A stretch of DNA of 33,536 nt, from positions 1 to 33,536 of the forward strand of contig CACYPH010000018.1 of assembly GCA_902776185.1 (NCBI GenBank), read 5' to 3'. Positions 23,525 to 28,101 of this stretch are shown piece after piece. A program made the position numbers and the translations under genes. Within the stretch, counting starts at the first letter, position 1; each line of letters opens with the position of its first letter. Below the pieces are notes generated by a model that did no database searches, had not been told where the DNA came from, and saw nothing but the letters and a program-made list of their open reading frames with translations. The stretch is from an uncultured Ruminococcus sp. GTDB lineage: Bacteria; Bacillota; Clostridia; Oscillospirales; Acutalibacteraceae.

Positions 23525-23537
23525 TTCTCTCGGAAAG

Positions 23538-23595
23538 CCTTCCCCTCGGGGGGAAGGTGTCACCGTGCAACTTGTTGCCGGTGACGGATGAGGGG
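23538..23595. repeat. Multi-hairpin intergenic element A, in the purA leader
   Basis: Hairpin 1 is CCTTCCCC (23538-23545) with GGGGAAGG (23550-23557). Hairpin 2 is GTCACCG-GCAAC (23559-23571, one bulged T) with GTTGC-CGGTGAC (23574-23585). A TGAGGGG tail follows at 23589. The layout of two hairpins plus a TGAGG tail is shared with the elements before purB and guaA. The rest of the 23338-23656 gap shows only the terminator and promoter described separately. Confidence 0.7.
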
Positions 23596-23656
23596 ACAAC
23601 CTTTCCTCTCCATCTGTTTTATCACAAAAGTCCACCTTTGCATATTGGAGGTCATT

Positions 23657-24931
23657 ATGTCAAATTGCGCTATCGTAGGCATCAACTGGGGCGACGAGGG
23701 AAAAGGCCGCATGGTCGACCTCATCTGCGCCGACTATGACGTGGTCGTCCGCTATCAGGGCGGCGGCAACGCCGGTCACACCGTCATCAACGATTACGGC
23801 AAATTCGCCCTGCATCTTCTGCCCTCGGGTATTTTCCATAAGGACGTCGTGTCCGTCATCGGCAACGGCGTAGCAGTCGACCCCGAGAATCTGATCAAAG
23901 AGATCGAGTATGTCCGCGAAAAGGGAATCAAACTCAGCCCCGATAACTTAAAGATCAGCTCCCGTGCATCACTGCTGCTGCCATGGCACAAAGAGCTCGA
24001 CTGTCTGGAGGAGCAGCGCCTCGCCGACAAAAAGTACGGCTCTACCAAACAGGGCATCGCGCCGTTCTACTCCGATAAATACCAGAAGAAGACCGTCCTC
24101 GCGGGCGAGATATTGAACGAAAAAGCGTTTTTTGAGCACCTGCTCCCGATCATGGAGTGGAAGAACCTCACTCTCGAGAAGGTCTACGGCGCAGAGCCGA
24201 CGACCTATGAACAGCTCAAGGAATGGTACGATAACTACTGCATCAAGCTCATGCCCTTCATCGGCGACCTCGAGTACTTCTTTGATAACGCCAAGAACAC
24301 CGAAAAGGACGTTCTGTTCGAAGCCCAGCTCGGCGCGCTGCGCGATATCGACTTCGGCATCCACCCCTACACCACCTCGTCCTCGACCATCGCGGCATAC
24401 GCGCCCATCGGCGCAGGACTGCCGTCCTTAAAGCTCGACAAGATCATCGGCGTCGTCAAGGCGTACTCCACCTGCGTCGGCGAAGGCCCGTTCACCTCTG
24501 AGTGGTTCGGCGAGGAAGCCGACAAGCTCCGTGAAGAGGGCGGCGAGTTCGGCGCAAAAACCGGACGTCCCCGCCGCGTCGGCTCATTCGACGTCGTCGC
24601 CACGCGCTACGGCGTGCGGATGCAGGGCGCGACCGAGATCGCCCTGACCAAGATGGACGTCCTGAGCTACATGGACGAGATCCCCGTCTGCACCAAATAC
24701 AAGGTCGGCGACCGCATCACCGAGAAATTCCCCTTCCCGAGCCTGCTACCTGCTGCCGAGCCGATCACCGAGTACCTCCCCGGCTGGAAGACCGACATCA
24801 CCGGCGTCCGCCGCTTTGAAGATCTTCCGAAAGAAGCGCAGGACTACGTTCTCTATATCGAGAAAGCCATCGGCTGCTATATCAAATACATCTCTGTCGG
24901 CCCCGAGCGCGACAGCATCATCATCCGATAA
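23657..24931 (+). CDS. purA: Adenylosuccinate synthetase
   Basis: This 424-residue enzyme makes adenylosuccinate from IMP, aspartate and GTP, the first step from IMP to AMP. The GTP-binding loop is WGDEGKG (residues 11-17) with catalytic D13, and GGGNAGHT carries catalytic H41. SSRASLLLPWH, KQGIAPFYSDK and TGRPRRVG-type segments are family signatures. The ATG at 23657, seven bases or fewer after GGAGG, replaces a longer frame from 23588 that would start within the hairpin element. The length agrees with the family (about 425-430). The purB gene, whose product takes the next step, follows after a second hairpin element. Confidence 0.97.
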   Translation: MSNCAIVGINWGDEGKGRMVDLICADYDVVVRYQGGGNAGHTVINDYGKFALHLLPSGIFHKDVVSVIGNGVAVDPENLIKEIEYVREKGIKLSPDNLKISSRASLLLPWHKELDCLEEQRLADKKYGSTKQGIAPFYSDKYQKKTVLAGEILNEKAFFEHLLPIMEWKNLTLEKVYGAEPTTYEQLKEWYDNYCIKLMPFIGDLEYFFDNAKNTEKDVLFEAQLGALRDIDFGIHPYTTSSSTIAAYAPIGAGLPSLKLDKIIGVVKAYSTCVGEGPFTSEWFGEEADKLREEGGEFGAKTGRPRRVGSFDVVATRYGVRMQGATEIALTKMDVLSYMDEIPVCTKYKVGDRITEKFPFPSLLPAAEPITEYLPGWKTDITGVRRFEDLPKEAQDYVLYIEKAIGCYIKYISVGPERDSIIIR

Positions 24932-24937
24932 CCAATG

Positions 24938-25013
24938 GCTCCCTTTGATAAAGGGAGCTCCCGCCAAAGGCGGGTGAGGAATTGCAGTATTGGGTGAGGG
25001 CAAAGCCCTCCCA
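24938..25013. repeat. Multi-hairpin intergenic element B, in the purB leader
   Basis: Hairpin 1 is GCTCCCTTT (24938-24946) with AAAGGGAGC (24950-24958). Hairpin 2 is CCCGCC (24960-24965) with GGCGGG (24969-24974). TGAGGAATTGC follows, then hairpin 3, GAGGGC (24996-25001) with GCCCTC (25005-25010). Hairpin 1 is nearly identical to that of element C. It fills nearly the whole gap between purA and purB, ending about 20 bases before the purB ribosome binding site. Confidence 0.78.
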
Positions 25014-25041
25014 CAACTCTTCACTAAAACCGGAGGTCTAC

Positions 25042-26457
25042 ATGAAAACCAATTACGTATCCCCTTTCTCCGCGCGCTATGCGTCGGACTATATGAGCTC
25101 TCTGTTCTCCGCCCAGACCCGCATCGAAACATGGCGCAAACTCTGGGTCGAGCTTGCCCGCGCCGAATCCGACCTCGGTCTGCCGATCACATCGGAACAG
25201 GTCGAGGCGCTCGAAGATAACGTCAGCAACATCGACTTCGACTATGCCGCACAGAAAGAGAAGGAGTTCAAGCACGACGTCATGGCGCACATCCACGCCT
25301 ACGGCGCAGTCGCGCCCGAAGCGGCGGGCATCATCCACCTCGGCGCGACCTCCTGCTATGTTACCGATAACGCCGACCTCGTCCTCTACCGCGACGCGTT
25401 ATTATACATCCGCGGCGAACTTTTGAAGGTCATCGCGAATCTCACCGATTTCGCGGAAAAATACAAAGCCATGCCCACCCTCGGCTATACCCACTACCAG
25501 CCCGCACAGCTCGTCACCGTCGGCAAGCGCGCCTCTCTCTGGCTGCAGGACTTCGTCAGCGACCTCGATGAGATCGACTTCGCGATCAAAAACGTCAAGT
25601 TCCTCGGCTGCCGCGGCACGACCGGTTCTGAAGCGAGCTTCAAGGAGCTGTTCGAGGGCGACGGCGAAAAAATCAACGAACTCAACCGCCGCATCGCATC
25701 CGCTTTCGGCTTTGACGAGATCTTCGACGTGCAGGGTCAGACCTACCCGCGCAAGGTCGACAGCCGCATCCTCAACGCCCTGTCCTCCATTGCCCAGTCC
25801 GCCCACAAATTCGCGACCGATATGCGCCTTCTCCAGCACGACCGTCAGCTCTTCGAGCCGTTCGGCAAAACACAGGTCGGTTCCTCCGCGATGCCCTACA
25901 AGCGCAACCCGATGATGTGCGAACGCGTCTGCTCGCTGTCGCGCTATCTGATGACGGACGCGCTCAACGCGCCGATGACCATCTCCGTCCAGTGGATGGA
26001 GCGCACCCTCGACGATTCCGCGAATCGTCGCATCAGCCTGCCCGAGGGCTTCCTCTGCGCCGACGCGGTACTGCGCCTGATGCAGAAGATCACCGCAGGC
26101 ATCTTTGTCAACACCCCCGTGGTCGAGAAGGCGGTACGCGAGTATCTGCCCTTTATCGCGACCGAAAACCTGATGATGGAGGGCGTCAAGCGCGGCGCCA
26201 GCCGTCAGGATCTGCACGAGATCATCCGCCAATGCTCGATGAAAGCCATCGAGCGCATGGATAACGGCGAGGGCTGCGATCTGCTCGATCAGCTCGCCGC
26301 AAATCCCGACTTCCCGCTCACGCTCGAAGAGATGACCGACGTGCTCAACCCCGCCGACTACATCGGACGCTGCCCCGAACAGGTACAGGCATTGGTCGAC
26401 AAGACCCGCCCGCTTGTGGAAAACATCGACCGCAAATCCGCGGAGATTAATATTTAA
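25042..26457 (+). CDS. purB: Adenylosuccinate lyase
   Basis: This 471-residue enzyme splits adenylosuccinate to AMP and fumarate, and SAICAR to AICAR and fumarate in the de novo pathway. The fumarase/aspartase superfamily signature is SSAMPYKRNPMMCER (about residues 281-295) with its flexible catalytic loop; HLGATSCYVTDN (about 98-109) and THYQPAQ are the other conserved regions. The length and the start (NYVSPFSARYAS) resemble the longer, eukaryote-like PurB class rather than the 430-residue Bacillus type. The ATG at 25042 follows GGAGG; a longer frame from 24982 starts in the hairpin element and is rejected. Confidence 0.96.
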   Translation: MKTNYVSPFSARYASDYMSSLFSAQTRIETWRKLWVELARAESDLGLPITSEQVEALEDNVSNIDFDYAAQKEKEFKHDVMAHIHAYGAVAPEAAGIIHLGATSCYVTDNADLVLYRDALLYIRGELLKVIANLTDFAEKYKAMPTLGYTHYQPAQLVTVGKRASLWLQDFVSDLDEIDFAIKNVKFLGCRGTTGSEASFKELFEGDGEKINELNRRIASAFGFDEIFDVQGQTYPRKVDSRILNALSSIAQSAHKFATDMRLLQHDRQLFEPFGKTQVGSSAMPYKRNPMMCERVCSLSRYLMTDALNAPMTISVQWMERTLDDSANRRISLPEGFLCADAVLRLMQKITAGIFVNTPVVEKAVREYLPFIATENLMMEGVKRGASRQDLHEIIRQCSMKAIERMDNGEGCDLLDQLAANPDFPLTLEEMTDVLNPADYIGRCPEQVQALVDKTRPLVENIDRKSAEINI

Positions 26458-26466
26458 ACGCATACG

Positions 26467-26536
26467 GCTCCCTTTGGTAAAGGGAGCTGTCGCCATTTGG
26501 CGACTGAGGGATTGCACAATGTCGCCGTCAGGCGAC
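26467..26536. repeat. Multi-hairpin intergenic element C, in the guaA leader
   Basis: Hairpin 1 is GCTCCCTTT (26467-26475) with AAAGGGAGC (26479-26487). Hairpin 2 is GTCGCC (26489-26494) with GGCGAC (26499-26504), then TGAGGGATTGC, then hairpin 3 made of the same arms, GTCGCC (26521-26526) with GGCGAC (26531-26536). It occupies most of the purB-guaA gap and ends 21 bases before the guaA ribosome binding site. Confidence 0.8.
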
Positions 26537-26568: not shown

Positions 26569-28101
26569 ATGCAAAAAATCCTTGTCCTCGATTTCGGCGG
26601 CCAGTATAACCAGCTGATCGCCCGCCGCGTGCGCGAGCAACACATCTACGCCGAGATCAAACCCTATAACAAAATCACCGTCGACGAGATCAAGGCGGCA
26701 GGCTACACCGGCGTCATCTTTACCGGCGGCCCCAACAGCGTCTATGATCCCTTATCACCGCACTACGACCCCGCCATCCTTGACGCCGGTATCCCCATCC
26801 TCGGCATCTGCTACGGCTGTCAGCTGATCGCCTATATGGCGGGCGGCACGGTCACAAGCGCCGAGAACAGCAGCGAATACGGCAAGATCGACCTCACCGT
26901 CGACGACGACGTCCTCTTTAACGACGTCCCGCGCACCAGCGTCTGCTGGATGAGCCACCGCGACTATATCGCCTCCCCGCCCACAGGCTTTGCCGCCACT
27001 GCGCGCACCGCTCAGTGCCCCACCGCCGCCATGTGCGACGAAAGCCGAAAGATATACGCCGTCCAGTTCCACCCCGAGGTCACCCACACCGAATACGGTC
27101 AGCAGATCCTGCATAACTTCCTCTACAACGTCTGCGGCTGTACCGGCGACTGGCAGATGGACAGCTTCATCGACGATACCGTCGCGCAGATCCGCGCACA
27201 GGTCGGCGATAAAGGCGTCGTGCTCGGACTTTCCGGCGGCGTAGATTCATCGGTTGCCGCCGCGCTGATCAGCAAGGCGATCGGCAAACAGCTCACCTGC
27301 GTGTTCGTCGATCAGGGACTGATGCGTAAAAACGAGGGCGACTTCGTCGAAGAGACCTTTACCAACCTGTTTGATATGAACTTCATCCGCATCAATTGTC
27401 AGGAGGAATTCCTCGCTAAGCTCAGCGGACTGACCGATCCCGAGGATAAGCGCAACGTCATCGGCAGAGAATTCTATAACGTATTCTGGAACAGGATCCG
27501 CGAGAGCTACGGCAGCGGTTACTTTGCACAGGGCACGATCTATCCCGACCGCATCGAAAGCGGCAAGGGCGATGCGTCAAAAATCAAAACCCACCATAAT
27601 CAGGTGGGTATTCCGAAAGATATCCATTTTGAGGGCGTGATCGAGCCGCTCAAGGATCTTTTCAAGGACGAGGTCCGCGCCGTCGGCGAAAAGCTCGGAC
27701 TGCCGCATGACCTTGTCTGGCGTCAGCCCTTCCCCGGTCCCGGACTGGGCGTCCGCGTGATCGGCGAAGTCACTGCCGAGCGCGTCAAGATCCTGCAGGA
27801 AGCCGACGCGATCCTCCGCGACGAGATGGATCGCTGCGGCTACGCAAAGGAAATGAGCCAGTTCTTCGCGGTGTTACCGGGCGTCAAAACCGTCGGCGTC
27901 ATGGGTGATGCGCGCACCTACAGCGAGCTGGTCGCGATCCGCGCCGTCACCACCGACGACTTCATGACCGCCGACTGGGCAAAGATTCCCTACGACATCC
28001 TCGGCAGAGTCTCGAACCGCATCATCAACGAAGTTCCCCAGGTCAACCGCGTCGTCTACGATATCACCAGCAAACCCCCCGGAACCGTGGAGTGGGAGTG
28101 A
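26569..28101 (+). CDS. guaA: GMP synthase (glutamine-hydrolysing)
   Basis: This 510-residue enzyme turns XMP, ATP and glutamine into GMP. The N-terminal class I glutaminase has C81 (GICYGCQL) and the pair H168/E170 (QFHPEVTHTEYG). The ATP-pyrophosphatase domain starts at about 200, with LSGGVDSSV (221-229), and the C-terminal dimerisation domain ends KPPGTVEWE. The length is normal. The ATG at 26569 follows AGGAGG; a longer frame from 26497 lies in the hairpin element. The 3' end of guaA is a known insertion site of genomic islands, and the sequence becomes mobile-element-like straight after this gene; the coding frame is intact. Confidence 0.97.
   Translation: MQKILVLDFGGQYNQLIARRVREQHIYAEIKPYNKITVDEIKAAGYTGVIFTGGPNSVYDPLSPHYDPAILDAGIPILGICYGCQLIAYMAGGTVTSAENSSEYGKIDLTVDDDVLFNDVPRTSVCWMSHRDYIASPPTGFAATARTAQCPTAAMCDESRKIYAVQFHPEVTHTEYGQQILHNFLYNVCGCTGDWQMDSFIDDTVAQIRAQVGDKGVVLGLSGGVDSSVAAALISKAIGKQLTCVFVDQGLMRKNEGDFVEETFTNLFDMNFIRINCQEEFLAKLSGLTDPEDKRNVIGREFYNVFWNRIRESYGSGYFAQGTIYPDRIESGKGDASKIKTHHNQVGIPKDIHFEGVIEPLKDLFKDEVRAVGEKLGLPHDLVWRQPFPGPGLGVRVIGEVTAERVKILQEADAILRDEMDRCGYAKEMSQFFAVLPGVKTVGVMGDARTYSELVAIRAVTTDDFMTADWAKIPYDILGRVSNRIINEVPQVNRVVYDITSKPPGTVEWE

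Follow-up and report, generated by a model that had tools for sequence, protein, structure and literature searches.

Multi-hairpin repeats before purA, purB and guaA as candidate solo ends of a DUF559-linked mobile element

The purA-purB-guaA locus and copies in the host genome

In a 33,536-nucleotide stretch of DNA from an uncultured Ruminococcus sp. (contig CACYPH010000018.1 of assembly GCA_902776185.1; the whole of this stretch is referred to as the window), three consecutive genes, identified by Pfam as purA, purB and guaA in agreement with the initial annotation, are each preceded by a multi-hairpin element, which we designate A, B and C (Table 1). All three follow a common plan, in which a hairpin with one pyrimidine and one purine arm is followed by a second hairpin and a purine tail, with a third hairpin added in B and C, and they fall into two sequence families, A (CCTTCCCC) on one side and B with C (GCTCCCTTT) on the other. 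The positions, second hairpins and tails of the three elements and the third hairpins of B and C were as first described, as were the near identity of the first hairpins of B and C (a single-base difference) and the construction of A on the same plan from another sequence, which makes it a separate family. Elements B and C start a few bases past a stop codon and their third hairpins stop, again as annotated, ~20 bases upstream of the ribosome binding sites of purB and guaA. The first-hairpin pattern of B and C (up to three mismatches) matched twice in the window, compared with 0 matches in 100 dinucleotide shuffles.

The annotation had offered two readings of these elements, a leader shared by purine genes or a mobile intergenic repeat, and the second is supported by their dispersal in the host genome (1.88 Mb in 74 contigs, 86% complete). 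The B/C-type pattern gave 53 matches there compared with 4 for a reversed control, and the A-type pattern 21 compared with 0 for its control; the 53 include three matches that are not element-like and one element counted twice, and the distinct copies read with their flanks, those in the window included, number 49 of the B/C type and 21 of the A type. First hairpin and tail are near-constant across these copies at many unrelated sites. Neighbouring genes were examined for 20 copies, of which 18 had a flanking frame and 16 frames were scanned; a family was assigned to 13 of the 16 (some under the curated cut-off) and none to the other three. The flanking genes include a carbamoyltransferase YgeW, a protein arginine kinase, a dipicolinate synthase, a branched-chain aminotransferase, a shikimate kinase, a glycogen phosphorylase-type enzyme and an elongation factor G-type protein, as well as one phosphoribosyltransferase, assigned at family level only.

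Table 1 Features of elements A (23536-23595), B (24937-25012) and C (26466-26536) and their neighbour genes in the window.
Feature	Position	Strand	Remark
Element A first hairpin (pyrimidine arm, loop, purine arm; CCTTCCCC family)	23536-23558	+	21 A-type copies in genome
Element A second hairpin (variable loop 2), GTCACCG..CGGTGAC, 27 bases	23559-23585	+	
Element A tail GGATGAGGGG, mirror of purine arm	23586-23595	+	9/10 triads
purA, neighbour outside element	23657-24931	+	Pfam Adenylsucc_synt 4.9e-158
Element B first hairpin (GCTCCCTTT family)	24937-24959	+	49 B/C-type copies in genome
Element B second hairpin, CCCGCC-AAA-GGCGGG, 15 bases	24960-24974	+	
Element B tail TGAGGAATTG, mirror of purine arm	24975-24984	+	8/9 triads
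Element B third hairpin	24992-25012	+	
purB, neighbour outside element	25042-26457	+	Pfam ADSL_C 3.3e-22, Lyase_1 1.5e-19
Element C first hairpin (GCTCCCTTT family)	26466-26488	+	
Element C second hairpin, GTCGCC-ATTT-GGCGAC, 16 bases	26489-26504	+	
Element C tail TGAGGGATTG, mirror of purine arm	26505-26514	+	9/9 triads
Element C third hairpin, GTCGCC-GTCA-GGCGAC	26521-26536	+	
guaA, neighbour outside element	26569-28101	+	Pfam GMP_synt_C 1.2e-42, GATase 3.2e-40

Inverted pairs, DUF559 genes and the question of mobility

The ends were found in three arrangements: alone, as a gene-less inverted pair and as an inverted pair around a DUF559 gene. When the host genome was searched tolerantly for first hairpins, 13 gene-less, tail-to-tail inverted pairs of 159–229 bp were recovered, six of the B/C family and seven of the A family, and it is these pairs, not the solo copies in the window, that possess terminal inverted repeats. 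A 551-bp inverted pair on host contig C5 encloses a 127-residue frame belonging to DUF559 (PF04480) and is apparently the autonomous form of the element. Partial copies of it lie at the end of contig C24 (left part, 96.6% identical over 380 bp, beginning one base before the first hairpin) and at the start of contig C71 (right part, 98.8% identical over 166 bp); the flanks of both fragments differ from those of the C5 unit, which implies that the genome carries the gene-bearing unit at several places. Where DUF559 loci have unrelated flanks, alignments between them start and stop no more than a few bases from the outer first-hairpin edges (453 bp for L098 and L259, 449 bp for L187 and L191, with other alignments extending further), and the gene-bearing form is a discrete unit of ~450–550 bp. 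At five loci (L102, L107, L111, L118 and L120) the DUF559 frame was seen to run into the terminal hairpin, so that the last residues of the protein (e.g. ..PSGHLPLKGKA, ..LLTAPSSEGAL) are encoded by the repeat.

Pfam lists DUF559 as a protein of unknown function, and it is termed EDxHD in the part of PMC9403480 used here. Residues E24, D55, E66, D68 and H72 were invariant in DUF559 alignments of 23 and 35 sequences. The predicted fold (mean predicted local distance difference test, pLDDT, 89.6) had as its top Foldseek matches 3hrl, a Neisseria endonuclease-like protein (1.1 × 10−6), and the catalytic domain of I-Bth0305I (1.5 × 10−4), with Vsr lower in the list and weak (E 0.1). We would expect DUF559 to be an active homing-type nuclease.

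PF04480 was present in 20 of 39 relatives. Using a test of 250-bp flanks in which an inverted repeat scoring at least 30 is a pass, 19 of 28 testable DUF559 loci passed (from a set of 30, two being excluded for short flanks), including one, L101, where a control window of its own locus also exceeded 30, reaching 46. A scan of species genomes found inverted repeats at 50 of 79 DUF559 loci compared with 1 of 360 windows elsewhere in those loci; left and right flanks mixed from different loci passed in 133 of 800 cases, which we read as ends common to several genomes. This set includes the isolate Flavonifractor plautii ATCC 29863 (L257) and also Anaerovibrio and Schwartzia (L217, L238), and as the 28-locus and 79-locus sets overlap partly (genome G012 is in both) and contain relatives, their counts are not independent.

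Among plasmid and phage records, 10 of 17 DUF559 loci passed (15 of the 17 from a plasmid collection and two from phages), namely those of Pseudanabaena, Picosynechococcus, three Deinococcus, Azospirillum, two Sphingomonas and both phages, with 1 positive in a control of only 16 windows; viral contigs held seven DUF559 loci. On one Sphingomonas plasmid, transhydrogenase genes lie on either side of the unit, which is complete with first and second hairpins and mirror tail. A DUF559 unit lies between paaD and paaZ in Deinococcus psychrotolerans, and the paaD-paaZ spacer of Deinococcus sp. QL22 is without the element, at a junction that is not base-exact. On two Deinococcus plasmids from different species (L176 and L294), DUF559 loci, both with inverted repeats, occupy two junctions of apparently the same hydroxyphenylacetate cluster, and the different junctions suggest separate insertions. 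We found no paper joining DUF559 with inverted repeats in an open-access literature collection.

Across 297 genomes of the order, an excess of a generic end pattern over its control of at least 20 was found in 23 of the 77 genomes with DUF559 compared with 2 of the 220 without (Fisher test, P = 4 × 10−13); put the other way, DUF559 is present in 23 of 25 repeat-rich genomes and in 54 of 272 others. Presence is defined here by a best E-value of at most 1.6 × 10−20, which 77 of the 92 genomes with any match attained, the other 15 being placed in the group without. In a within-family permutation with two ends subtracted per DUF559 gene the association gave P = 2 × 10−4, and 10 of 14 families agreed; the permutation omits 8 of the 297 genomes, which are in single-genome families or in one without DUF559 (f24, two genomes). 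Turnover of ends is visible between two genomes, G012 and G017, that are ~95% identical in the compared loci: each has 13 ends in a collinear span that aligns over 75% of its length, and of these 8 in G012 and 9 in G017 are not within aligned blocks, and several spacers carry different elements in the two genomes or have diverged.

There is good support for A, B and C being dispersed ends of a DUF559-linked element, and we put at roughly 70% the probability that they are solo ends, of two families, of a mobile element whose nuclease recognises, cuts and spreads it. When its DNA is transiently single-stranded, the end would adopt a purine-motif intrastrand triplex, which the DUF559 nuclease would recognise and cut, as the association and the covariation described below suggest, and repair or replication would copy the unit, or a single end, into a new intergenic site. 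DUF559 would also act in trans on gene-less pairs, and some solo ends may come from deletion between the two first-hairpin palindromes, which double as direct repeats. Several observations weigh against such an element. Inverted repeats at threshold are lacking at 29 of the 79 DUF559 loci in the species-genome scan and at ycjD, the DUF559 gene of E. coli (score 20), and phage locus L178, one of the ten positives, aligns over a repeat of non-hairpin type. Four of the 14 families show the opposite direction, and 28 of the 77 DUF559 genomes have a pattern excess below 3; their ends may differ in sequence or have been lost, or these genomes may be a point against the model. Neither a base-exact empty site nor a target duplication was seen in the compared G012/G017 and Deinococcus sites.

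The low-excess genomes also fit an alternative in which DUF559 is a passenger or homing gene that settles in existing inverted pairs, the repeats themselves spreading otherwise, by fork template switching or through an unseen enzyme. At two orthologous sites a full pair in one of G012 and G017 faces a lone first hairpin in the other, as would fit homing into a palindrome, and after 3hrl the closest fold is that of a homing endonuclease domain. However, the presence of DUF559 in nearly all of the most repeat-rich genomes (the 23 of 25 above) argues against this alternative, and loci cease to be homologous at the outer edges of the ends, which implies that gene and ends travel as one unit; we consider settlement of DUF559 in pre-existing pairs unlikely, if the best surviving of the alternatives.

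Movement of the repeats by Y1 transposases, of the repetitive extragenic palindromic (REP)-associated tyrosine transposase (RAYT) or IS200 type, is very improbable. The host genome has four Y1 genes, and the association of palindromic repeats with Y1 enzymes is known (PMC3733652), but the repeat-rich genomes show no enrichment of Y1 transposases (8 of 25, compared with 79 of 272 others, P = 0.8), and an inverted repeat at threshold was present at 3 of 17 testable Y1 loci (20 taken, three too short for the test), one of these being a GTAG palindrome of another kind. No first hairpin was found near the three host Y1 genes searched (the fourth was not searched), and a Y1/RAYT mobiliser was rejected on genome association and flanks.

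A 561-bp insertion in G012 relative to G017 (G012:C1:81659-82219) reads like a Y1-type transposase gene and has no first hairpin at its ends, and a second repeat class, starting GTAGGG (e.g. GTAGGGACGACCAGTGGTCGTCC and GTAGGGGAGGGGCTTGCTCCTCCCG), occurs in the same kind of spacers among those compared between G012 and G017. At locus L070 (genome G036), inverted copies of a GTAGGG-class palindrome flank one Y1 transposase match (score 34), and the class resembles a conventional GTAG-type REP accompanied by its Y1 enzyme.

The tail as a putative third strand

The purine tail mirrors the purine arm of the first hairpin, as in the arm/tail pairs AAAGGGAGG with GGAGGGATT, AGGGGAGC with TGAGGGGT, GAGGGAGG with GGAGGGAG and AAGGGGGG with GGGGGGAT. 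When the window was scanned on both strands, no hairpin of this type other than those of A, B and C had a mirror score of at least 0.8, the runner-up scoring 0.79. This score was attained without the T.CG rule by 59% of 251 ends, which come in part from related genomes, compared with 16% for foreign tails and 7% for shuffled ones. With the T.CG rule, applied to the 178 of 251 ends with arms of 8–10 bases (45 distinct arms), the mirror was perfect in 77 of 178 ends, compared with 99 of 5340 foreign tails and 26 of 3560 shuffled downstream sequences, and scored at least 0.8 in 128 of 178, compared with 1359 of 5340 and 404 of 3560 respectively. A direct-repeat model scored below the mirror (mean 0.65 and 53 of 178 ends at 0.8 or above, compared with 0.82 and the 128 of 178). 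The base opposite the outermost arm base, which was not used in placing the tail, was T for C in 34 of 36 cases and G for G in 41 of 48, T opposite C being an accepted triad. A detector built on the triad rule found 15 ends in G012 and 18 in G017 (~180 kb each), compared with 0 after triplet shuffling. Pairing of the tail with the pyrimidine arm, as in simple strand exchange, was dropped, as the tail mirrors its partner and is not complementary to it.

A purine-motif antiparallel intrastrand triplex is built from the triads G.GC, A.AT and T.AT in the part of PMC4666352 used here, where RNA is also stated to form no purine-motif triplexes. Judged from sequence, arm and tail covary as triads in the way expected of a purine-motif intrastrand DNA triplex, which they look like, and this mirror-type covariation points towards a DNA rather than an RNA structure. 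The second hairpin would then be the loop between the duplex and the third strand. Among 32 copies of the 15-base class it varies but keeps its pairing in 191 of 192 cells, 5 of the 6 positions having alternative Watson-Crick pairs, and a role as the free loop of a triplex would explain its fast change in sequence while the pairing stays. The compensatory changes whose lack, according to the annotation, would have refuted a conserved RNA are abundant in this hairpin, but the arm/tail triads point to DNA. Downstream of the tail, many host copies of the B/C family (e.g. L026, L028 and L088) carry a third motif like CGAGC-NNN-GCGAG, in which a GCNNNGC mini-hairpin could be framed by tandem G.A mismatches; in some copies, as in B and C, a perfect hairpin replaces it.

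Transcription terminators or messenger RNA-stabilising intergenic hairpins provide a highly unlikely explanation of the elements. The hairpins are strong, and B and C have the position just behind a stop codon noted above, but no T tract follows the hairpins, their sequence is near-constant over many unrelated sites and a mirror-tail covariation is not a feature of RNA, given the statement on RNA triplexes in PMC4666352; a secondary terminator or stabilising role of the hairpins may exist. A purine-responsive RNA leader common to purA, purB and guaA, for which three consecutive purine genes and the paired, compensating second hairpins could be cited, has hardly any probability left and was ruled out as a purine-specific leader by the many copies beside unrelated genes, which the initial annotation had itself named as a refuting finding, by the absence or replacement of the element in relatives and by a scan of the window that gave 0 Rfam matches at gathering scores. 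The purine spacers were compared in nine relatives with purB 78–87% identical: the closest (87%) has no element in its purA-purB or purB-guaA spacer, and different paired elements lie before guaA in G073 and before purB in G012. Any effect of A, B or C on purA, purB or guaA would be incidental.

Relation to known repeats and mobile elements

BoxC, PIT and TM repeats were described in the 1990s, and we know of no established way in which they spread. The ends resemble the BoxC/PIT/TMECO motif, as set out in the part of a 2015 survey used here (PMC4666352), in their order of pyrimidine arm, loop, purine arm, loop and second purine strand, and in being intergenic, dispersed and at loci unstable between strains. 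They differ in that their second loop is a variable hairpin of 15–27 bases, whereas the surveyed loops are of 1–6 bases, a limit by which hairpin-looped ends fall outside that search, and in having other sequences, inverted pairs and a nuclease gene between the ends; in the same part of the survey, no mobility gene was found near the motif.

Both partners are present in E. coli K-12, where ycjD, annotated as DUF559, lies between sapF and fabI and adjoins a BoxC repeat. This 37-base repeat fits the TMECO/BoxC pattern quoted in the part of PMC4666352 used here, and a 46-base query that includes it had matches in 5100 of 5426 genomes, the median being 4 places per genome; a 2.3-kb query of the sapF-fabI region was at least 80% covered in 3362 of the 5426. 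In three E. coli genomes (L270, L271 and L272) the match breaks off after sapF and an efflux operon stands in place of ycjD, the junction thus being variable within E. coli. We regard it as an even question whether there is a new class of bacterial mobile element, with triplex-folding single-stranded DNA ends moved by a lone EDxHD (DUF559) nuclease, that is the source of BoxC/PIT-type repeats over several phyla. If this link holds, a single nuclease family would explain a great many of the short G-rich repeats of bacteria, a homing-type nuclease would have a transposase-like role and a natural DNA triplex would gain a selectable function; the nuclease-carrying complete forms offer a testable explanation for the spread of such repeats in bacteria.

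Miniature inverted-repeat transposable elements (MITEs) are similar in that gene-less inverted pairs of 159–229 bp occur here alongside a gene-bearing version with the same ends; our elements differ in having a DUF559 nuclease in place of a known transposase, multi-hairpin ends and many single ends, and no target duplication was seen. With EDxHD/Vsr-like homing endonucleases such as I-Bth0305I the nuclease shares its fold and the invariant E, D, E-x-D and H residues, but its gene is enclosed by inverted repeats and occurs at many intergenic sites; neither an intron nor an intein was noticed, though no search was aimed at them. Elements of two consecutive hairpins, thought to be mobile, are found in Allomyces mitochondria, but those are fungal and organellar; the likeness noted is in the layout. 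The REP/RAYT system, as described in the part of PMC3733652 used here, also combines short palindromic repeats between genes, many of them arranged as inverted pairs, with an enzyme presumed to be dedicated to them. Here, however, the enzyme is a PD-(D/E)XK-type nuclease and not Y1, the end has two hairpins with a mirror tail, and no GTAG/CGTC tag was found by eye at the first hairpin in the host copies read with their flanks. The suggestion in the initial annotation of a REP/MITE-like repeat is therefore apt for the dispersal and the MITE-like pairs, and inapt for the tag and the enzyme. What is new is the nuclease-bearing element with its putative triplex ends; the window copies alone are a variant of intrastrand-triplex repeats.

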